Origin: Daucus carota subsp. sativus
Taxonomy: Eukaryota > Streptophyta > Magnoliopsida > Apiales > Apiaceae
Reading direction: 5' to 3'
NCBI RefSeq assembly: GCF_001625215.2
Contig: NC_030389.2
Span: forward strand, 44,381,454-44,445,453
DNA: 64,000 nt
Of this stretch, positions 42,979 through 56,533 are shown piece by piece; position 1 is the stretch's first letter, and the number at the start of each line of letters is the position of its first letter. Position numbers and translations under genes: made by a program. The notes beneath the pieces were generated by a model that did no database searches, was not told where the DNA came from, and was given only the letters and a program-made list of their open reading frames with translations.

Positions 42979-43258
42979 GGCCCGTGGGTGCTTCATATGT
43001 ATTAATAGTTTTTATGTGTTAGAATTTGTGTATAGCTGGGATGTTCGTTGCTAAATAATATTTTACAACTTGACCTTTTATTTGATGAAGTGACGACCAG
43101 CATATTATGCAAGATATAATACTGAAGTTTTGACAATTGATAAGATACCCCTTAACTGGATGATGCTCTGTGTTTTTAGCCCCAAGATTGGGGCAAGTTT
43201 TTTTAGCCATGACAAATGAGGAGAAAAAGGACTACGTCACTGCACTACAAAAAAACAG

Positions 43259-43690
43259 GACAAAACCGACCGGCTAAAACCGACCGCCAAAAAAAAGTGT
43301 CGACTTAAAACCGACCGGACTAAATCGGTCGGTTACGTCTCAGAGCGACGTCGTTTTGCCTTGCTGGCAAGGCCAGGCATTTTATAACCGACCGGGACAA
43401 CAGTGGTCGGTTTTATGGCTGACGTGTACAACGCTTAACCGACCACAGCCTCGGTCGGTTATGTGTTTTTAAAGAATTTAATTGATTTTTAAATAAATTA
43501 TGAGTTTAAACGACGACGTGTGATCGCGAAAACGAAAACCGACCGCCAGCGGTCGGTTTTATCCTAATATATTCATATAATTTTTTTTATTTATGTGGAA
43601 AATGGATAACATAAACTCGTCAGGGAAGGGGTTACGACGCCGTTTTTGTATAAATATCATAACCGACCGGCACCGGTCGGTTTTAACTCG
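43259..43690. repeat. Left subterminal AACCGACCG array
   Basis: AACCGACCG or its inverse CGGTCGGTT (with the variants AACCGACCA and TGGTCGGTT) occurs about a dozen times, many as close inverted pairs. By analogy with En/Spm these are binding sites for the small transposon protein. Confidence 0.9.
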
Positions 43691-44283
43691 TAATTTTGAT
43701 TAATATGATTCTCCCCCACCAGTCTATCTTTCTTTTTCCCCAACTTATTTTCTTCCTCTTCTCTTCCCAAAAATCTCTCTCTACTCCCCTCTCTCTGTGT
43801 CTCTGCCAACTAATCTCTCCCTCTCCGCCAATAAAATGCACATGAAGAATATGGATTTTAAACTCCGTTCGGTCTCGATTGGATTTTGGATATCAATCTC
43901 AATTAGGGTTCAATCTCAATTTAAAGGTATATCGATCTCTCCCTCAGTTTCTCTTTAGCATTTTGTGTATGTATATATGTGTTTTTGTATGTATGTATAT
44001 ATATGTTTCTTTATGTATATGATTTTGAATTTGAGTTTGATTTTGAATTTGAGTTTGATTTTGATTTTTAGTTTCTCTTTAATTGTGAATGTTCTTTGAA
44101 TTCGATTTTTAGTCGAGTTTGTAAGCATGAATGCATGATAATGAAGAAGGAGTCCGTTTTTGAAGCAAAATATATAATCATTTCATTCATATTCATAATT
44201 TATAAGAACACCCATAAACATATATATTTATAAATACTTAAATAAAATTCATAATAAAACACTTGAAAACAACTGTAACAACT

Positions 44284-44598
44284 TCAAATCCCCGAAGGGC
44301 CCGCCTTGCCTTTGCCTTTGCCCGCCTTGTCCTCCTTGTCCTCGTCCTTCTTTTGTTGCTTCAACTTCGCGGTCATCATCCCCGCGAAGCGAATCAACCA
44401 CTCTTGCTTGCGTAGCGCTGCCCGCCTTTCTTCCTCTAACCGCTCTTGTTCGAGATAGTGATCCATTTGCATGAACATGATTGGGATTTTATAATCCCAA
44501 TCCATTTCCACCCAAATTTCATCGGGGATGTCGAGAATGCCATAGGAGACTCCATCGATTGTGACGGTGTTGTTGTTGTAGTTGATTGTGACTGCCAT
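44284..44598 (-). CDS. Small antisense ORF of the CACTA element, unknown function
   Basis: This is a 104-residue ORF starting MAVTINYNNNTVTIDGVSYG. The first half is neutral to acidic (ILDIPDEIWVEMDWDYKIPI). A charged, probably helical segment follows (YLEQERLEEERRAALRKQEW), then a Lys-rich tail KKDEDKEDKAGKGKGKAG ending GPSGI. I do not recognise a family. It lies between the left terminus and the transposase, transcribed towards the terminus, so its promoter would abut the array at 45,130. The lack of stops, the compositional order and the GKGKGKA-type tail (also seen in the TnpA-like protein) argue that it is real. It may be an accessory transposon protein or a chance ORF. Confidence 0.5.
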   Translation of the reverse strand: MAVTINYNNNTVTIDGVSYGILDIPDEIWVEMDWDYKIPIMFMQMDHYLEQERLEEERRAALRKQEWLIRFAGMMTAKLKQQKKDEDKEDKAGKGKGKAGPSGI

Positions 44599-45127
44599 TG
44601 TAATTTTGATTGTGATTGTAGTAGTTGTAGTTAATTTGTGGTAGATTAGAACCCTTTTTATAGCACAAGTGTTAAGCAACTAAAAAGTCTCTACATTGAA
44701 TTGTATTAGTGTTACAATCCCAAGAGTCACCCTTCCATTACCTTGTATTGAATTCTATGAGTTACACTCCCAATATTCATACCCCTTGATTGCTTAGGAA
44801 TTTGATAGGATTTTGAAATTTAAATATTATTAAGATTAATTTTATTTGATTTTGGACTTTGAATTTGATTTACTCATCTATTTTATTTGATTTTGAGTTT
44901 GATTTGATTTTGATATATTTTTTTGAGTTTGATTTTATAAAGCGTGTGAGTTTAATTTGTTGTTCGCATAAATTTTAATTTGAAATATTTTGAAGATTAA
45001 ACAATTTTTTAGGGAGTTATCAATGACGGGACTGGTTTTTATCAGACGACTTGTGAATAAATGGTTGCGTTTGTTATGAGTTTTCTGATATAAAACCAGT
45101 TCCGTCAAATTATTTTTTTAAAAATTT

Positions 45128-45722
45128 AAGCGACAAAACCGACCGACTAAAGTCATAACCGACCGAGGTTACCATTGCCGTAACTCAGTAAACCGACCGA
45201 TTGGGTCATAACCGACCGTTTATAGCATAATCAAGTGCAGAAAACCGACCGATATGGTGGTCGGTTTTGTTCTTATTAGTTTTATTTATCGGTTTATTTG
45301 GCTAAGTCTTGAGAATGCTCTGCGGCACCGAAGAACGACGTCGTTTGCATACTATAAAACCGACCGATCTCGGTCGGTTTTGATTATTTTATTTTTATTT
45401 CTTGATTTATTTTGGCTAAGTGCTAAGACGACGTCGTTTGTGCAAAATAAAACCGACCGAATTGTTGGTCGCTTTTGGTCGGTCGGTTTAACATGGTCGG
45501 TTTTAAATGCTGGGAAAGTAGCGTTCTGCTCGTTAACCGACCAGAAACGGACGTTCGTTTTATTTTGAAACATAACCGACCACCCGGTGGTCGGTTTTGA
45601 CCCCCATTATATATTTTATTATTTAAAAAACGGCGGGTAGGTGCGTTTTAGCAGTGATACGACATCGTTTTGTTTAAATAGACATAACCGACCGTTTATA
45701 TTTGACAGTCGGTCGGTTTTGT
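45128..45722. repeat. Internal AACCGACCG array upstream of the transposase gene
   Basis: There are about 15 copies of AACCGACCG, CGGTCGGTT and one-base variants, including paired inverted copies. The array ends about 320 bp before the transposase ATG. It looks like the terminal arrays but lies about 2 kb inside the element. Confidence 0.85.
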
Positions 45723-46038
45723 GTGAGCTAAAAAGTTAAAAACTACTCTCCACTTTCATTATACAACAAAGCTTGGAAATTATCAAATATCAAAAGAAGA
45801 AGAAGGAGAAGAAGAAAAAGAAGGAGAAGAAGAAAAAGAAGAACAAGAAAGGAAGGAATCAATTATCAAAAACAAAGTAAGCTACTCTTCTTAATTATGA
45901 TCACATTGTGATTTTTATTTATTTTGTTGAGAATAATTTGTATGAATGTTGTTTATATAAATTTCTTGGATAATTTGTAATGTGTATATGTTTTATGTTA
46001 TGTTAATACATACGTGGTGTGTATATATATTTATGTAG

Positions 46039-49000
46039 ATGACAAATCTTGATCGAAGTTGGATTAGTAACCGGTTGCAACGAGATAAAATTACTCTTAA
46101 TTTAGAATATAGGGAAGGTGTAGAGGAATTTTTGAATTTTGCAAGCTTGAAAATGGAGGGAGGTATGATGAAATGTCCTTGCAAGCTTTGTAAAAATTTG
46201 AATTGGTTAGGGGTAGATGATGTTCGGTTTCATTTGATATCCGAGGGTATGATGGAGAGTTATACGGTATGGACTTCGCACGGAGAGGTTTCGCAAAAAA
46301 ATAAAAAGCGAAAATCATGTGAAACGCGAGAATGTCGTAGGGTAGTAGATGATCATGTTGATATCAACTCCATGTTACATGATTTTGCCGGTTCGAATCA
46401 TGAATTTTATGATACCACGGGTACTACTAATGTTGAAGAAGCTCCTAATGATAGTGCTAAAGAATTTTATAAGGCGATTGTTGAAAATGGTGCTCCTATT
46501 TATCCCGGTTGCACAAAATTTACAAGATTAAGTTTTACCGCAAAATTGTTGGAGTTCAAAAATGCGTCTAATTGTAGTGACAAAGCCTTCAACAGTTTGA
46601 TTAAGATCATTATGGACGTGTTACCAAAAAAGCACACATTACCCGAGTCTTATTATGAGATGAAAAAGGTTATGAAAAGTTTAAGGGTGGAATATGAAAA
46701 AATTGATGTGTGCGAGAATGATTGTATGCTATTTTATGGAGATGACAAAGATAAAATTGTGTGTGATATATGTAGTTGTAATCGATATTTGGATAAATCA
46801 AGGAAAAATGGTAAGAAAATTCCGAGAAAGATTTTAAGACATTTTCCTTTGATTCCCCGACTGCAACGCTTATATATGTCGGCACATACATCCAACCACA
46901 TGAGGTATTACAAAAATCGAGAGGTCAATGAAAAAGAAATTTCTCACCCTGCGGATGGAGACGAATGGAAGAATTTTGACCTCCGATATCCATCATTTGC
47001 TCAAGAAATTCGTAATGTAAGACTTGGTTTTGCGACCGATGGTTTCAACCCGTTTGGGAATACGGGTAACAAAACATATAGTGTATGGCCCGTGGTAATT
47101 GTTGTGTATAATCTTCCGCCGTCCATGTGTATGAAGAGACCGTATATGTTTTTGATGGATATTATACCGGGTCCGGAGAGTATTGGGAAAAATATTAATA
47201 TATATCTTAGACCTCTCATTGATGAATTGAAGACATTATGGTATACCGGAGTGCAAACATATGACCAATCTCTAAAACAAAATTTTACCATGAGAGCGGC
47301 TCTTATGTGGACAATCAGTGATTTTCCTGCCATGAGTATGGTAAGTGGTTGGTCGGGGAAAGGAAAGCTTGCATGTCCAGTGTGTTTGGGAAGTGTGCAG
47401 GGGTTTCAGTTAAAACATTCTGGGAAATGTTCTTTTCATGGCACTAACCGAATTTTTCTTGAACCTAATGATCCATTGCGTAAGAAGAGTAGCTTGTTTG
47501 ACCATTCGGAAAAAAGGTTGTGGCGTGGACGCTTATCCGGGGAGGAAGTTAAAACTTGGATTGATAGCATAGACTTTCCACCACCCGGAAAGACTAACAA
47601 AAAGAAAAGAAGTGATGGATATGGGGTTGAGCATCATTGGACTCATGCCCCGATGTTCTATGATCTCCCTTATTGGTCTTCACATAGTTTGCGACATTCC
47701 ATTGATATCATGCATACCGAAAAAAATGTGTTTGAGAACATATTTTTTACCATTGTTGGGGGCAAGAAGTCAAAAGATCACCACAAGGCAAGGTCGGATT
47801 GCAAACACTTCGGTGTGTTGCCTCATTTGTGGATTGATGAAAATGGCAAAAAACCAAAAGCTCCGTACTCTCTTAGTAGAAAACAACTCAAACTTCTATG
47901 TCAGTGGATTCACGTTGAAACTTCCAGACGGTTATGTCTCAAATATATCTCGTTGTTGCAATGCTAAGGAGTGTAAGTTTTTTGGATTTAAATCGCATGA
48001 TTGTCATATTTTCCTTCAAAAATTGTTGCCTCTATCAATTCGCGAGCTTCTACCGGGACCAATTGTGGATGCCTTGACAATGATTTCCAATTTTTTTCAA
48101 GAATTATGTTCATCTGTGATTACGAGATCCGACTTGGATCTAATGACGAAATCGGTTATTAGAGCTTTGTGTTTATTGGAAACAATTTTTCCTCAGACTT
48201 GGTTTGATTCGATGGAGCATTTGGTAATACATTTAGCAGAAGAAATTAGACTAGCAGGACCCGCTTATTGGCATTGGATGTATCCAATTGAACGGTTATT
48301 AGGGAAATTTAAACAAAAGGTTGGTAATAAAGCGCGAGTCGAGGGTTCAATTGCCGAACGTTATATGGAAGAGGAGATTCTTAATTTTTGTTCCTTCTAC
48401 TTTGCCACGGACTCAATTCATAATAAAATACGTCGCAATGAAGCTCGTTTTGATGGTGATGGCTCCGAAAAATTAGAAGTTTTTGAATATCCAATTGAAT
48501 GTCTTGGTAAAGAGGGAAGTCGTTATTTGACCGATAAAGAGCGAAAGTTAGCAGAAGAATATGTACTTCTAAGCTCTCCAGAAATTCAACCTTATCTAAG
48601 GTATCATTTATAATTTAAATAAATTTATTTAAATTTATTTTAATTCATTTTAATTTATTATAATTTATTGATAATTTATTTTAATTTATTTATTATAATT
48701 TATTTCAGGCGGTTTACAGATCGTGTTATGAGTCAACGTCCGGAGACAACACCTCAACAATTAGATTGTTACATAAAGACCGATTTAAAGATTGGTTATT
48801 GAAAAAGGTATATATTGTTTTTTCAATTTCTTTTGAAATTTGAATATATTTCATCAATATAATTTTAATATTTTTAGGTTGGACGAAATGATGTAAACCA
48901 ACCTCTTCTTCAATATTTGTTTGAGGGACCGGCTATGCGGGTAATGACATTTGAGACTTGTAAAGTCAATGGATACAAATTTTGTACGAGAACATCTTCC

Positions 49001-49492
49001 GGTTCCGGTGTCATTGTTAAGGGCACTTCACATGATAACAATAGTGATTATTATGGACAATTGAAGGAAATTGTCAAGCTTATTTATCGAGGAGGAAATT
49101 ATGTATATTTATTCAAATGTATATGGTTTGATAGTGTCGGAAATGGTGTTGTGATTGATAAAAATAGGGTCGTGACCGTGGATATTACTTCAAGATTGAA
49201 GTCGGATGAGATTTTTATTTTGGCTAGTCAAGCTTCCCAGGTTTACTATGCTCCCAGTGTATTGAATCCACATGGCAAATATTTTACGGTCGTCAAGTCT
49301 AAAAGTCGTCCGATAAGCGAATCTATCAAAATATCAAATGATATTGAAGAAGCTTATCAAGAAGATAGATCAAATGCTACTAGTGCATTCTCTATATTTG
49401 TTGATTTTGCACAATATGGTTCCTTACCGTTCGTTCGACATGAAGAAGATGAACAAGAAGAAGAAGACAAAGATGAAGAAGAGGATGATGAT

Positions 49493-49524
<32 letters not shown>

Positions 49525-50676
49525 AGAAGAAGAAGAAGAAGAAGAAGAAGAAGAAGAAGAAGAAGAAGAAGAAGAAGAAGAAGAGAAGAAGAAGAAGAAG
49601 AAGAAGAAGAAGAAGAAGAAGAAGAAGAAGAAGAAGAAGAAGAAGAAGAAGAAGAAGAGAAGAAGAAGAAGAAGAAGAAGAAGAAGAAGAAGAAGAAGAA
49701 GAAGAAGAAGAAGAAGAAGAAGAAGAAGAAGAAGAAGAAGAAGAAGAAGAAGAAGAAGAAGAAGAAGAAGAAGAAGAAGAAGAAGAAGAAGAAGAAGAAG
49801 AAGAAGAAGAAGAAGAAGAAGAAGAAGAAGAAGAAGAAGAAGAAGAAGAAGAAGAAGAAGAAGAAGAAGAAGAAGAGAAGAAGAAGAGAAGAAGAAGAAG
49901 AAGAAGAAGAAGAAGAAGAAGAAGAAGAAGAAGAAGAAGAAGAAGAAGAAGAAGAAGAAGAAGAAGAAGAAGAAGAAGAAGAAGAAGAAGAAGAAGAAGA
50001 AGAAGAAGAAGAAGAAGAAGAAGAAGAAGAAGAAGAAGAAGAAGAAGAAGAAGAAGAAGAAGAAGAAGAAGAAGAAGAAGAAGAAGAGAAGAAGAAGAAG
50101 AAGAAGAAGAAGAAGAAGAAGAAGAAGAAGAAGAAGAAGAAGAAGAAGAAGAAGAAGAAGAAGAAGAAGAGAAGAAGAAGAAGAAGAAGAAGAAGAAGAA
50201 GAAGAAGAAGAAGAAGAAGAAGAAGAAGAAGAAGAAGAAGAAGAAGAAGAAGAAGAAGAAGAAGAAGAAGAAGAGAAGAAGAAGAAGAAGAAGAAGAAGA
50301 AGAAGAAGAAGAAGAAGAAGAAGAAGAAGAAGAAGAAGAAGAAGAAGAAGAAGAAGAAGAAGAAGAAGAAGAAGAAGAAGAAGAAGAAGAAGAAGAAGAA
50401 GAAGAAGAAGAAGAAGAAGAAGAAGAAGAAGAAGAAGAAGAGAAGAAGAAGAACTAAGAAGAAAGAAAGAAGAAGAAAGAAGAAGAAAGCAGAAGAATCC
50501 GAAGCAGAAGAAGAAGAAGAAGAAGACGAAAAGAAGAAGAAGAAGAATCAGAAATAAGAAGAAGAAAGAAGAAGAAGAAGAAGAAGAAGAAGAAGAAGAA
50601 GAGACGAAGAAGAAGAATAAGGAAGAAGAAGAAGAAGAAGAATCACTCAGAAGAAGAAGAAGAAGAAGAAGAAGAA

Positions 50677-50707
<31 letters not shown>

Positions 50708-51048
50708 AAGAAGACTAAGAAGAAGAAGAAAGAAGAAGAAGAAGAAGAAGAAGAAGAAGAAGAGAAGAAGCCTCCGAAGAATAAGGAAGACGCGAAGAAG
50801 AAGAAGAAGAAGCAGAAGAAGAAGAAGAAGACTAAGAAGAAGAAGAAGAGAGAAGAAGAAGAAGAAGAAGAGAAGAAGAAGAAGAAGAAGAAGAAGACTC
50901 CTCCTAAGAAAAGAAGACGAAGAAGAAAGAAGAAGAAGAAGAAGAAGAAGAAGAAGAAGAAGAAGAAGAAGAAGAAGACAAAGATGAAGAAGAGGATGAT
51001 TATGATGATGGATTGATGAAATTGATTAATATAATGAATATTTTATGA
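46039..51048 (+). pseudogene. TNP2-class CACTA transposase, frameshifted and repeat-expanded
   Basis: The gene runs 46,039-48,600, 48,709-48,807 and from 48,878 on. Domains in order: a transposase-associated domain (about residues 7-75, with CPCKLCKN), the TNP2 RNase-H-like core (HPADGDEWKNFD, GFATDGFNPFGN, SGWSGKGKLACPVC), a DUF4218-like part (LPDGYVSNIS, KSHDCHIFLQKLLPLSIREL, YPIERLLGKFKQKVGNKA) and a DUF4216-like part (GSGVIVKGTSHDNNSDYYGQ, NYVYLFKCIWFDSVGNGV). A frameshift falls near 47,900-47,915, before LKLPDGYVSNIS, and another near 48,755-48,770, before HKDRFKDWLLKK. The acidic tail (EEEDKDEEEDD) runs into the giant GAA tract; the original end and stop appear to lie at 50,971-51,048. 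The ATG directly follows an AG acceptor, so a 5' leader intron is likely. Confidence 0.85.
49490..50970 (+). repeat. Giant GAA/TTC microsatellite (about 1.5 kb)
   Basis: Nearly uninterrupted GAA repeats run from about 49,490 to 50,455, with a few one-base slips (AAGAGAAG) that change frame. A more degenerate section follows to 50,970, with inserted C, T and CT. A 30-bp block (GAAGAAGACAAAGATGAAGA and ten more bases) lies at both edges, at 49,460-49,489 and 50,971-51,000. The first copy is in frame with the transposase; the second is displaced by two. The tract is purine-only on one strand over most of its length and could form triplex DNA. Its exact length may be an assembly estimate. Confidence 0.9.
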
Positions 51049-51189
51049 TGTTGTTGAATTATTGATTATTGATTTGTTAGTTTCATGAAATTATTGATTA
51101 TTGATTTGTTAGTTTGTTGGATGGTTGTTGGTTTGGTCGCAGGTAAAGGCAGAGAAAGGAAACAACAAAACCTTGTTTTTTTTGTTAAA

Positions 51190-51395
51190 ATACGCAGAAA
51201 ACCGACCGACTAGTCATAAAACCGACCGCTTTTACCATTCAATACGCAGAAAACCGACCGAACTGCTATATAACCGACCACTGTTACCATTCGGTAAAGC
51301 AGAAAACCGACCGATTGCAAATATAACCGACCACGGTTACCATTCGGTAAAGCAGAAAACCGACCGATTGCAAATATAACCGACCGACTTTCCCT
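51190..51395. repeat. AACCGACCG array downstream of the transposase gene
   Basis: Nine or so AACCGACCG or AACCGACCA copies, all on the plus strand, lie within a partly tandem unit (GCAGAAAACCGACCGATTGC, repeated, with ACCATTCGGTAAA between). Confidence 0.85.
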
Positions 51396-51397
51396 AT

Positions 51398-52115
51398 ATA
51401 TTTTTAAAAAATCCGGTTCGCCTAATTTTCACGTTACGAAGTCACACATGTTAATTATAAACTTGACTAAGATGTTTTAATTTTTTAGACAATTCAAAAA
51501 ACATTTTTATATGTACGGATCCCCTAAACAGAAAACTAATCATATACCAGAAGTCTTATTTTGAATTACCTCGTTCACTCTTAATTATTCAAAAATTAGA
51601 TGTTTTATTATTTAAACGATCCAACCATACGGATGTTAATAAAATAATCTCATCAACGTCGAGACAAAAATTTCAGATGATTTCGATGAATCGAAATACA
51701 CTTTTATAACCTTTTTATTGTGAAAATATACATAAATAAAATTTTAAATTAAGAAAATATTTTTAAAAAACCCGGTTCGCCTAAATTTCACGTTACGAAG
51801 TCACACATGTTAATTATAAACTTGACTAAGATGTTTTAATTTTTTAGACATTTTAAAAAAAATTCTTATATGTACGGATCCCCTAAACAGAAGACTAATC
51901 ATATACCAGAAGTCTTATTTTGAATTATCTCGTTCACTCTTAATTATTCAAAAATTGATGTTTTATTATTTAAACGATCCAACCGTACGGATGTTAATAA
52001 AATAATCTCATCAACGTCGACACAAAAATTCAGATGATTTCGATGAATCGAAATACACTTTTATAACGTTTTTATAATAATACTTTATATAAACAAAATA
52101 TTAAATTAAGAAAAT
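51398..52115. repeat. Two tandem copies of a 359-bp unit
   Basis: The segment with CCGGTTCGCCTAATTTTCAC, then TATGTACGGATCCCCTAAAC and CGTTCACTCTTAATTATTC, occurs at 51,413 and again 359 bp later. The copies are about 95% alike by eye. No coding capacity is seen. It separates the transposase gene from the small-protein gene. Confidence 0.85.
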
Positions 52116-52126
52116 ATTTTCCCAAA

Positions 52127-52295
52127 AACACAAAACCGACCGACTATAGAGTAAAACCGACCGACCTTGAAAATTACGCGGAAAATGAATTTTTCGTGAA
52201 AAATTAAAACACCCGCGCGACAGAAACGACGTCGTTTGATGGTTCTGCACAGATTTCCAGGTCAAAACCGACCGGGTTGCCGGTCGGTTTTGGTG
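52127..52295. repeat. AACCGACCG motifs upstream of the TnpA-like gene
   Basis: Two plus-strand motifs lie at 52,135-52,165, and a tight inverted pair (AACCGACCGGGTTGCCGGTCGGTT type) at 52,265-52,288. The pair is about 160-180 bp before the ATG at 52,445. A TATAAA at 52,302 follows it. Confidence 0.75.
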
Positions 52296-52444
52296 CGTCA
52301 GTATATAAACAAAAAAAAGCCCCCTTTCCTCTTTTATTCTCACACGAACACTGCTGCTCCAAACTCTTTCCTCTCCAAACTCTTTCAAACTCCAAACTCG
52401 AATCAAACCCTCTCCTAACTCTTTCAAGGCAAGAATCAAGTGCA

Positions 52445-55400
52445 ATGGCGGCAAGAATCAAGAATCGGAAACCCTCTCCAAAATCCTCTTCAATGGTAGA
52501 ATCCTAACTTTTAATTTGTGTTGGTATAGAGCTTAAATTTGTGTTAGTATAGAGCTCTATTGAACTTCAATTTGTTTGATTTGTTTAGTTTTCAAGCTTT
52601 TATATGTATGCATTGTATGTATATAAAATTTGTATATGTTAGTTTGGAAATATACATGCAAGTTCTTGTCGTCGGTTATGTCATGAGAATGAAAACGATA
52701 GGTTTTAGTTTGTGTATGTTAGTTTTGGTTTGTATATGTTTTAGTTTTAGTTTGTATATGTTAGTTTTAGTTTGTATATGTTAGTTTTGGTTTGTATATG
52801 TTAATTTGTATATGTTAGTTTGGAAATCTCTGTTTTTTATTTGTTTTTATATTTTTGTAATTTTTAGTTTGTACTCACATTCATAAGGAGGGCTTGGAAT
52901 TTGGTTTTGTGTTTGTATTAAGGGGTTGTGGTTTGCATTTGGCATTTTGATATAATTAAGGTGTTGTGGTTTGCATAATTGGTTGTGAATGAAATTTATG
53001 TGATATAATTAAGGGGTTGTGGTTTGTATTTTGGCATTTTGATTTATAAGGGGTTGTGGTTTCATTCATTTTGGCGTTTATATGTTCAAAAATGAGTCGA
53101 TTCATAAGGTGTTGTGGCTTGCATAATTGGTTGTGAATGAAATTTATGTGATATAATTAAGGGGTTGTGGTTTGTATTTTGGCATTTTGATTTATAAGGG
53201 GTTGTGGTTTCATTCATTTTGGCGTTTATATGTTCAAAAATGAGTCGATTCATAAGGTGTTGTGGCTTGCATAATTGGTTGTGAATGAAATTTATGTGAT
53301 ATAATTAAGGGGTTGTGGTTTGCATTTTGATTCATAAGGGGTTGTAGTTTCCATTTAAAGTCGATTATTTTTTTATTCATATTCTAACCAATGGTGTTTA
53401 TGGTGTTTGATTAGGGCACCTTGTGGTGGTTTGTCATCCTTGTGGTGATGATCATTGCCTTAATGGCAAGAAAAGGCAAGGGCAAGGGGAAGGCCAAGGA
53501 GACAACCAAAGGCAAGGGAAAAGGGAAAGCCAAGGAGACAACTTCCACTCGGAAAGGTAAAGGAAAGTCTAGCACCTTGGCTATACGTGATGAGCCAACT
53601 GATTCGGATGAAGGCGGGGAGAATCCGAATGAAGAGGAAGTTCCAAGACGAAGGGTAATTAGGAGGCCACGATCCCATTCAGCCGGTTTGTTTGGAAAAG
53701 TCCCTCCGAAACCAATCCGTATCAATATTTCAGGAGGACAGTAAGTCTACTTGTAGTAACTTATATATATATATATGTATATCTATCTATATATATATAT
53801 ATATATATGTATCTTGCACTTGTTTAAATTTTGTTGACATATATATATATGTACATATAATCTCTTTTCACATTTTTGGTAGTATTGAAGATGATCAAGC
53901 AAAGAAGACTTTGCTTGCTATTGTTCGTGAAAGGTGGCCCGTTGGACATTACACGTTCACCGACATTGTTGAATATGATGATGAATGGCTAAAACACGTA
54001 GTCGAGGAATTTAATGTAAGCTACTCTTCTTATGCTCACATCGTGATTTGTATGCATGCTTTTTTATTTATTTGTATTATGTGTAAATAGTCTAACCATA
54101 TGTATGTAATTTATCTTGATTTTATTATAATTGTAGTTATATTTCAAGCAACAAAAGGGACAAAGCCGGTCCGAAGCAAAAAATATAATTGAGAAGCATA
54201 TCAAAAACACAATAAAGAGGACGTTGAATGAGCTCAAGACAAATATTGAGCAAAAATCAAAGGAAAGCGGAAAATCAAAATTGAGTTTAAGACCTGGATA
54301 TTGGTCTGAACTTTTTTGGAAGGATTTATTAAATTATTGGGAAAAGAATGAGGGGCACTTGCATAGGTCATCCGTTGGATCTACGAACCGCAAGAACGTC
54401 GAGCGGTTGCATAGTGCCGGTGCCCGGTCTTTTAATAAAGTGAAGGAGGTATATATAAATATCTATTATCATACACACCTTAATTTCTTAATTAAGATTT
54501 AATTCACATATATATTATATTGATGATTTAAATTGTTTTTGGAAGGAAATGAAAAGGAAGGAACGTGGAAAGAATCCAACTCGCCTTGAAGTATGGAACC
54601 GGACGCATACAAGGGTTGGAAGTGATCCCGAGCACCCCGTGTATACCACGCCTGCTGCAATGGCCATAGCGGTAATTAAATGATTGTCTTGTGGTTTTTT
54701 TTTAAAGTTTCAATGTCCATTTTACTTTTTAAGTTGTTTAATGTACTGATTGATGCACATTTCTCTGTAGACACGATATGCTTCTATTCTAGAAAGCAGG
54801 CCGGTGTCGGTTACACAAACAGGGGATAGAGACGAGCCCTTGGAATGGTGGTTGTCAGCAACCGGAGTTCCCGAAGGCAAAAAGCCTAAGAAGGACTACC
54901 TTGTTGGATTCCCCGAGGCTCGTGCTAGTCAACTTATTCCGACTCTTGCCTCACGTTACAGGGATTCAACAAGAGGCGAAGCCGGTGGATCTTCCGGTCA
55001 GAGACAAGAAGCCGTCATTCCCGACAATGTGTACCTCTCGGTCGTGCGCAATGTGCTCAATGAGGTCCGTGCGAACCCCCTTCAATTTCAGCGACAAATG
55101 TCTGAAGAAGAGATCGCGAATTTTGCAAAAACCGCACTAGAGGCCTCCGATCCAGCTGCCGATCCAAGTACAAGGGTTCAATGGAATTCTATGATTGGTG
55201 GGGAGATGGTACACATTGTGGGGTCGATGGTCGAGGATATACTCCTCAAAATGGAAAGGAAGGTTGAAGAGGTACGAATTCATATTTGTTATCTACTTGT
55301 ATTGATCGAGTATGCTTATTTTCTTATTGGTTGTCATTGTCTATTATATGTGCAATTAGGAAAAGGAACGCAGACTCGCAGCGGAGAAGGATTATACTGA

Positions 55401-55566
55401 TCCAGAGGAGCTGTCGGAGGAGGAACGCGGGGGACCCGAAGCCGGTGCTGATGCGGGTGCCAATGCTAGTGCTGCTTCAGGAGCGGATGCTAGTGCTGCT
55501 TCCGGAGCGGGTGCTACTGCCGCTGCGGATGGAGCTGCTTCCGATTCAGATGTTACATTAGATTAG
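52445..55566 (+). CDS. CACTA TnpA-like protein with Ptta/En/Spm plant transposase domain, intact
   Basis: Seven exons join in phase: 52,445-52,495, 53,415-53,740, 53,883-54,015, 54,137-54,448, 54,546-54,671, 54,771-55,271 and 55,360-55,566 (551 residues). The N-terminal part is Lys/Gly-rich (GKGKGKAKETTKGKGKGKAK). A conserved core follows (ERWPVGHYTFTDIVEYDDEW, SLRPGYWSELFWKDLLNYWE, RSSVGSTNRKNVERLHSAGA, NPTRLEVWNRTHTR), matching the Ptta/En/Spm plant transposase family (Transposase_24). The C-terminus is charged, then Ala-rich. By analogy with TnpA it should bind the AACCGACCG motifs and bring the element ends together. A hydrophobic stretch at the start of exon 2 (WWFVILVVMIIALM) is unusual, and a different exon 2 acceptor is possible. 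Motifs at 52,127-52,295 sit on its promoter, suggesting self-regulation. Confidence 0.88.
52690..53345. repeat. Minisatellites in intron 1 of the TnpA-like gene
   Basis: TTAGTTT(T/G)GTTTGTATATG recurs at 52,690-52,820. A unit of about 148 bp (GGTTGTGAATGAAATTTATG onward) occurs nearly three times, at 52,981, 53,129 and 53,277, with internal AAGGGGTTGTGGTTTG repeats. Confidence 0.8.
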
Positions 55567-55825
55567 TTTGGCTTTTGAATATTTGTGTTTTGAATATTGT
55601 GTTTAAGTTGGATTTGGAATTTGGTTAATGCTTGTGAAGGGCTTTTGGTTTGCCCTTGTAGACAATTATAAGTTTGATGTTTGGGATTGTAGTTATGGTA
55701 CATTTTGTTGTTATATATGGTGTTGTGGTTTATGTATTTTGGATATTGTTGATTGTTGGTTGTTGGTAGCAGGTATGGCAGTATATAGAAACAGCAGGAT
55801 TATTTTTTTTTGATAGAAAAACCAG

Positions 55826-56515
55826 AAAACCGACCGACTGAAGACAAAACCGACCGTCCTTACCATTCAATTCACAGACAAAACCGACCGACGTATACAT
55901 AACCGACCACGGTTACCATTCAAAAAAGCCAGAAAACCGACCGATTGCTTACTACTCGGTCGGTTATCTTTGGTAGATCGGTCGGTTATATACGGTCGGT
56001 TTTAATCCCTGCAAGCGCTCTGGTCGTTAACCGACCATGTCCTGTCGGTCGGTTATGGGAAACCGACCGAACGCGGTCGGTTATAAGGTCATTGTTTTTA
56101 GTTTGACTTTTCTGGTCAAACGTTTATAACCGACCACCTGCGGTCGGTTTTAGTTCCCCCAACAAATTTGACTTTTTTGGTCAACAGATTATAACCGACC
56201 ACATCCGGTCGGTTATATTATTCTTATATCGATTGACCATATTTTGGTCAAACATTTAAACCGACCGACTCCGGTCGGTTTTAGTTTACACGTGGCTGTG
56301 GCGTCCACGTGGCTCCAGATGGCATTGCTGCAGGGCCCAGGTAGCGACTTTCTTAAATAAGCAAAACCGACCGACATTTCGGTCGGTTTTAGTCTTTAAA
56401 CCCGACCAATAGCTGATAACCGACCAGGTTACAACCGACCAGCTTCTCCGGTCGGTTTTAGTGTTAAAACCGACCGTTTACCGTTGTAACCGACCGTTTT
56501 TGGCGGTCGGTTTTG
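55826..56515. repeat. Right subterminal AACCGACCG array
   Basis: More than 20 copies of AACCGACCG, CGGTCGGTT and one-base variants occur, many as inverted pairs around short spacers. This is the densest array, ending at the right terminal inverted repeat. Confidence 0.9.
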
Positions 56516-56533
56516 TCCTGTTTTTTTGTAGTG

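Follow-up and report, generated by a model that had tools for sequence, protein, structure and literature searches.

The window analysed here, a stretch of 64,000 nucleotides from the carrot genome (Daucus carota subsp. sativus; C9:44381454-44445453, forward strand), contains one full-length CACTA (En/Spm-type) transposon with a very long GAA tract in the acidic tail of its transposase gene. This element is probably a copy of a recently amplified CACTA family in which a coding GAA microsatellite was hyperexpanded by slippage during replication or repair, with one part of the assembled tract (zone 2, below) resembling raw sequencing reads. Slippage expansion of a pre-existing tract that was already near a threshold length is well supported by the comparisons with sister copies set out below.

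The element is bounded by identical 30-bp terminal inverted repeats (TIRs) that start with CACTA, at 43243 and 56533 (CACTACAAAAAAACAGGACAAAACCGACCG), and a 3-bp target site duplication (TSD), CTG, lies on either side of it. The window contains 45 copies of the subterminal repeat ACCGACC, of which 44 lie within 43265-56489, some of them in the stretch that separates the element's two genes. A chimaeric join of two copies was considered and rejected, as the TSD and both ends match; this check of TIR and TSD covers the window copy alone among all copies. The first gene has the domain set Transpos_assoc, Transposase_21, DUF4218 and DUF4216, followed by the acidic tail, and the host of the repeat is thus a transposase gene with a Glu/Asp-rich tail, as a sequence-only reading of this DNA had proposed. 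Parts 1 and 2 of the transposase sit in different frames in the list of open reading frames (ORFs), the start of the part 2 ORF (47612) being a mechanical call. A piece of the second gene shows a weak likeness to Transposase_24 (E 0.001, 19.7 bits, under the curated cut-off of 28.7). Other repeats also occur in the element: a second, short AAG-rich array lies upstream of the transposase ORF (45794-45849), a tandem duplication of ~358 bp with pieces 87-96% alike lies between the two genes (51398-52130), and a 148-bp tandem unit, whose second copy is 99% alike, lies ahead of the second gene (52957-53400). A tRNA scan of the window found none.

Table 1. Positions of the transposon, its genes and the parts of its GAA tract within the window
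Feature	Position	Strand	Basis
Complete CACTA (En/Spm-type) transposon, 13,291 bp	43243..56533	+	TIRs and TSD CTG/CTG
tnp2-type transposase ORF, part 1	46039..47967	+	Pfam Transpos_assoc PF13963, E 7.9e-21; Transposase_21 PF02992, E 5.7e-74
Transposase part 2, shifted frame, DUF4218	47612..48613	+	Pfam PF13960, E 1.7e-35
Private short lesion breaking the tnp2 frame, window copy only	47911..47912	+	Motif comparison across copies
Putative intron, GT..AG interval	48809-48879	+	Read from sequence; directly before the last exon
Last coding exon, DUF4216, runs into acidic tail	48880..49459	+	Pfam PF13952, E 2e-15 on 48881-49459
Left copy of 27-bp block	49463..49489	+	Exact word match
Tract zone 1, near-pure GAA	49502..50453	+	Wraparound alignment to perfect GAA
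Tract zone 2, raw-read-like	50454..50928	+	Wraparound alignment to perfect GAA
Tract zone 3, pure GAA, 50 bases	50929..50978	+	Wraparound alignment
Right copy of 27-bp block	50974..51000	+	Exact word match
Two private deletions of a single T, next to the tract	51012..51035 (after 51012, after 51034)	+	Sister comparison
Second-gene piece, weak Transposase_24 (Ptta/En/Spm) likeness	54224..54502	+	PF03004

The GAA array identified by Tandem Repeats Finder occupies 49442-50993, about 1.55 kb (period 3, 517.7 copies, 91% matches, 3% indels), a length and copy number taken from the assembly alone. It is flanked by a 27-bp word, GAAGACAAAGATGAAGAAGAGGATGAT, found on the forward strand of the window at 49463 and 50974, 1,511 bp apart, and nowhere else on that strand, so that the GAA repeat of about 1.5 kb between duplicated blocks described in the earlier reading is real. 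A purine run without interruption extends over 961 bases (49493-50453). Alignment to perfect GAA separates the tract into three zones (Table 1), the first of which contains eight departures in 952 bases (0.84 per 100 bases), every one a single-A deletion, whilst the second contains 58 in 475 bases (12 per 100), composed of 40 substitutions and 18 indels. The rates of departure in these two zones differ with p 5.6e-21 and the boundary between them is abrupt. The pure GAA runs of at least 29 units in the window copy measure 72, 66, 34 and 55 units, and the tract comprises over 300 near-pure units, perhaps 500 (about 317 to 518 as assembled). The assembled coding frame stops within the tract, at a TAA at 50555 inside zone 2. 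Frameshifts and a stop had been thought to end the protein before its original terminus; however, the stop falls in raw-read-like zone 2 together with 18 of the 26 indels, and this argument is largely untrustworthy because its letters lie there. That real frameshifts and a real stop ended the protein is therefore not supported.

Sister copies were sought with a probe of 361 bases from just left of the tract, searched against the 441,086,747-base assembly (11 contigs). This gave 41 matches at 40 places, the window included, of which 24 matches were at 99-100% identity and five at 79%; the 41st, a short match of 93 bases beside L002, was counted as part of L002. Sequence of 9.4 kb was fetched for 20 of the 40 places and of 701 bases for the other 20, the S numbers used below denoting loci L021-L040 and S21 the window copy. 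Thirty-three places with a readable left edge were scored (the window and 32 sisters), whilst L050, L052, L055 and L057-L060, which have no left anchor, were not; L055 and L057-L060 share 79% identity with the probe. The anchors of the first set enclose 1,561 bases in the window copy and, in all 19 sisters, 105-342 bases, always a multiple of three. In the second set, the left anchor is present in 15 of 20 copies, with tracts of 106-531 bases, 10 of the 15 being multiples of three. The terminus proper to the family is short and acidic, mostly ...FDEID, and is reached in frame by 28 of the 33 copies, those missing it being the window copy, L043, L047, L051 and L054. The longest pure GAA run among the 32 scorable sisters ranges from 4 to 37 units. 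The tails of two sisters, 342 and 531 bases long, keep the reading frame and have partial or heavy interruptions. The sister copies L041 (C6:13674530-13675230) and L040 (C6:13687000-13696443) lie ~22 kb apart and have very long in-frame acidic tails, of 182 and 119 residues respectively, from anchor to stop, interrupted by GAG/GAC. A further copy, L054 (C6:11665206-11665906), is much like L040 with many one-base indels and, judged by its letters, seems to be a duplicated assembly fragment that escaped polishing.

With up to three edits allowed per block, two blocks were found in the window copy and 14 of the 32 sisters, one block in 12 and no block in six. The 14 two-block sisters have pure GAA runs of just 9-29 units, and the edge duplication therefore predates the expansion and is not private to the window copy. 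This agrees with the proposal that the tail was duplicated before it expanded, and goes against a link between duplication and expansion in the window copy itself, as these sisters are duplicated yet have no long tract. A long tract with no edge duplication, the case that would have told against the earlier proposal, is absent among the 32 scorable sisters; the reverse case is that of the 14. Viewed in the window alone the two features look linked, but an origin of the edge duplication in the same event as the expansion is refuted by these short-tract copies and is given almost no credence. In the one-block form of the tail, a variable GAA/GAG run is followed mostly by a GSDDENENNGDGDDDYDD-like end, and these copies mostly terminate in GSDDENENNGDGDDDYDDGFDEID or a close variant; in the two-block form, present at many loci, the block flanks the pure GAA run on both sides. 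The two-block form thus seems, from its sequence, to be a derived subfamily with a second block in place of the GSDDENENNGDGDDDYDDGFDEID stretch, which may then have been multiplied by transposition.

Tract length is labile among near-identical copies. In the ~2.69 kb that follow the tract on its right, any two of S24, S27, S28, S29 and S32 are separated by 0-4 substitutions and 2-7 small gaps, yet their pure runs measure 15, 20, 19, 15 and 17 units, respectively; between S27 and S28, the 2,695 bases compared show seven one-base gaps and not a single substitution, and the two runs are one unit apart. S23 lies outside this near-identical set, 74-77 substitutions from its members in the aligned stretch. 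The nearest to the window copy among the 19 sisters compared are S35, S38 and S34 (0.51, 0.59 and 0.78% substitutions). A 148-base gap, perhaps one of the 148-bp units described above, separates the window copy from S35, S38 and S26 in the aligned stretch. Across the 441-Mb assembly, an exact (GAA)40 has 76 matches, all 76 of them inside the window tract and none on the opposite strand, and the long tract is therefore not due to chance. The whole assembly-wide count of exact (TTC)29 and (GAA)29 is 10 + 119 = 129 matches, which is exactly what five loci would give together (L038 1, L040 9, L042 3, L044 1, window 115); hence every pure GAA tract of at least 29 units belongs to this CACTA family. 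By analogy with Arabidopsis IIL1 and human FXN, unit-by-unit slippage might give way to large expansion once a pure run reaches ~30 units, and it is this analogy that suggests a threshold step in the expansion model.

The substitutions of zone 2 comprise 25 A>C, 14 G>T and 1 G>C, such that 39 of 40 are A>C or G>T, and the single G>C has, by eye, an equal-cost alternative placement that removes it. Natural interruptions in 31 sisters (the 32 scorable sisters minus L054; 2,229 bases) are instead composed of 68 A>G, 26 A>T, 18 A>C, 3 G changes and 4 indels. A>G or A>T accounts for none of the 40 substitutions in zone 2 versus 94 of 115 natural ones (Fisher 6e-22), and natural decay of zone 2 was rejected on this difference in spectrum. 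When the bases are written in amino/keto letters, perfect KMM runs at least three units long make up 92% of zone 2; foreign bases nearly all keep the class of the base replaced, singly or in runs up to CTCCTCCT, and the longest stretch of successive flips is eight (50898-50905). These patterns suggest that zone 2, the far third of the repeat, is uncorrected sequencing error, probably in unpolished or gap-filled long-read sequence. Signal confusion in a two-colour PacBio chemistry, which would pair A with C and G with T, is offered as an idea for what caused both kinds of flip. Such signal pairing was not found among the matches listed in a literature search, and the words Sequel and RSII are absent from the main text of the carrot genome paper (PMC10581907).

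The other noisy copy of the assembly, L054, has indels, no G>T and four A>C among GAC codons as in L040, so zone 2 is not simply the usual noise of this assembly. Import of zone 2 from another GAA-rich gene via mis-mapped reads was rejected, as a 32-base word, with up to three mismatches, is found here only; the import test covered two words, this one and GACTAAG in GAA context. GACTAAG in that context occurs twice in the assembly, both times in the window tract, whilst GAATAAG in GAA context occurs in the window tract and in one sister (C9:20227068), which led to rejection of a basecall motif common to other GAA tracts. Next to the tract, two of the three private one-base deletions fall within the first 42 of 2,700 bases (p 7e-4, the interval having been chosen post hoc), in a count of private differences over 14 rows that excludes the more distant S22, S31, S36, S37, S39 and S40. 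One-base gaps between sisters occur far from any tract as well, so these two T deletions are weak evidence.

A different reading of zone 2 is that it represents real DNA, altered by an odd mutational process on an exposed purine strand, one that turns A into C, and G into T, over several bases in a row. Oxidised guanine is known to give both kinds of change. The near-exclusive use of these two changes, the KMM regularity, the lack of G>T in the noisy control L054 and the occurrence of the two words tested in the window tract alone would all fit such a process. However, up to eight successive flips are unexpected under independent damage, 18 indels accompany the flips, the edge against clean zone 1 is abrupt, and an error that confused A/C and G/T signals would look identical. 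Real sequence in zone 2 is consequently considered very improbable, and sequencing error is preferred.

The whole long tract could also be a product of assembly, with contig ends that lay in a short GAA tract joined through low-complexity or mis-called reads and a true copy of 10-40 units, as in the sisters. The raw-read-like character and abrupt start of zone 2 are consistent with this, and an Extended Data legend of the carrot genome paper describes a gap-filling phase for the assembly (PMC10581907). In nanopore consensus sequences of the human FXN GAA repeat, most alleles show indels at 1-8%, a level that may, according to the authors, be an artefact of sequencing (PMC10053634), and repeat miscalling is documented at telomeres (PMC9414165). 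Against this, the low rate of departures in zone 1 suggests that several concordant reads agreed over its 952 near-pure bases, no other assembled locus has a (GAA)40 that could serve as a source of reads (an unassembled locus might), and the TSD and both ends give no sign of a chimaera. An assembly origin for the entire tract is thus judged rather unlikely. Only the window copy, in this assembly, extends beyond 40 pure units, zone 1 alone spanning 952 bases, and as no other assembled locus could have supplied nearly 1 kb of clean GAA, the expansion itself is probably real. We infer that the real tract is long, exceeding those of the sisters by at least several hundred bases.

A short lesion breaks the tnp2 frame of the window copy 1.5 kb upstream of the tract (47911); the motif at 47911-47912 is uninterrupted in 18 of the 19 other fetched copies and gave no match in the remaining one. 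From its sequence, the window copy is therefore likely to be dead for transposase, whatever the tract does, and was probably already inert. This bears on the proposal that the tract silences the element, through a triplex or R-loop or through 24-nt small RNAs that feed RNA-directed DNA methylation (RdDM). There is a plant precedent by analogy, since the intronic GAA/TTC expansion of Arabidopsis IIL1 gives rise to 24-nt small RNAs and RdDM-dependent silencing (PMC12177298), and the carrot tract includes the pure purine run of 961 bases. However, the carrot tract lies in the last coding exon rather than in an intron, and the broken tnp2 frame accounts for inactivity with no need of silencing. 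An active silencing role of the tract is accordingly regarded as unlikely, and expansion as a neutral accident in a dead copy is the most likely interpretation.

The starting states of GAA.TTC hyperexpansions are usually pieced together from populations. Here, one doubled-haploid genome provides 32 scorable relatives (runs of 4-37 units) and one expanded copy, each with its sequence context known, which would make possible a copy-by-copy comparison of the threshold, the role of GAG/GAC interruptions and the effect on methylation. The same tract carries a warning that the letters of such repeats in long-read assemblies may be wrong in a patterned manner. A broader proposal is that this CACTA family spreads GAA.TTC tracts of threshold length across the genome, its transposition copying a near-threshold coding tract to dozens of loci, one of which would then run away, and that small RNAs from the runaway copy restrain its sisters in trans. 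The latter step is speculation, in which GAA/TTC small RNAs of a transposase-dead copy would match the GAA runs of its sisters, and the proposal as a whole is considered a long shot. Among the papers listed in the literature search, judged by their titles and the opening lines of their abstracts, none described an expanded GAA repeat in a plant transposon, CACTA or otherwise.

In common with other CACTA/En-Spm transposons, the carrot element possesses CACTA ends, a 3-bp TSD, Transposase_21, DUF4218 and DUF4216 domains and subterminal repeats; this copy differs in the hyperexpanded coding microsatellite within its acidic tail, a feature with no counterpart among the papers listed in the literature search. 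The closest plant parallel is IIL1 of Arabidopsis (Bur-0 and Irish accessions), where a GAA.TTC hyperexpansion also arose out of a short polymorphic tract. Unexpanded IIL1 alleles have 0-36 repeats worldwide and 3-28 in Irish accessions, alongside an expanded state (PMC5006647), and the likeness to the longest pure runs of the carrot sisters (4-37) is striking. The IIL1 tract, however, is intronic and lies in a host gene, whereas that of carrot is coding and belongs to a multicopy transposon with many sister loci. The human FXN repeat of Friedreich ataxia shares the GAA unit, and the ~317 to 518 units assembled in carrot exceed its pathogenic threshold, given as over 66 repeats, with 600-1200 common (PMC10053634). 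In contrast to the carrot tract, which is known from sequence alone, the FXN repeat is a human intronic tract whose instability and disease have been studied.
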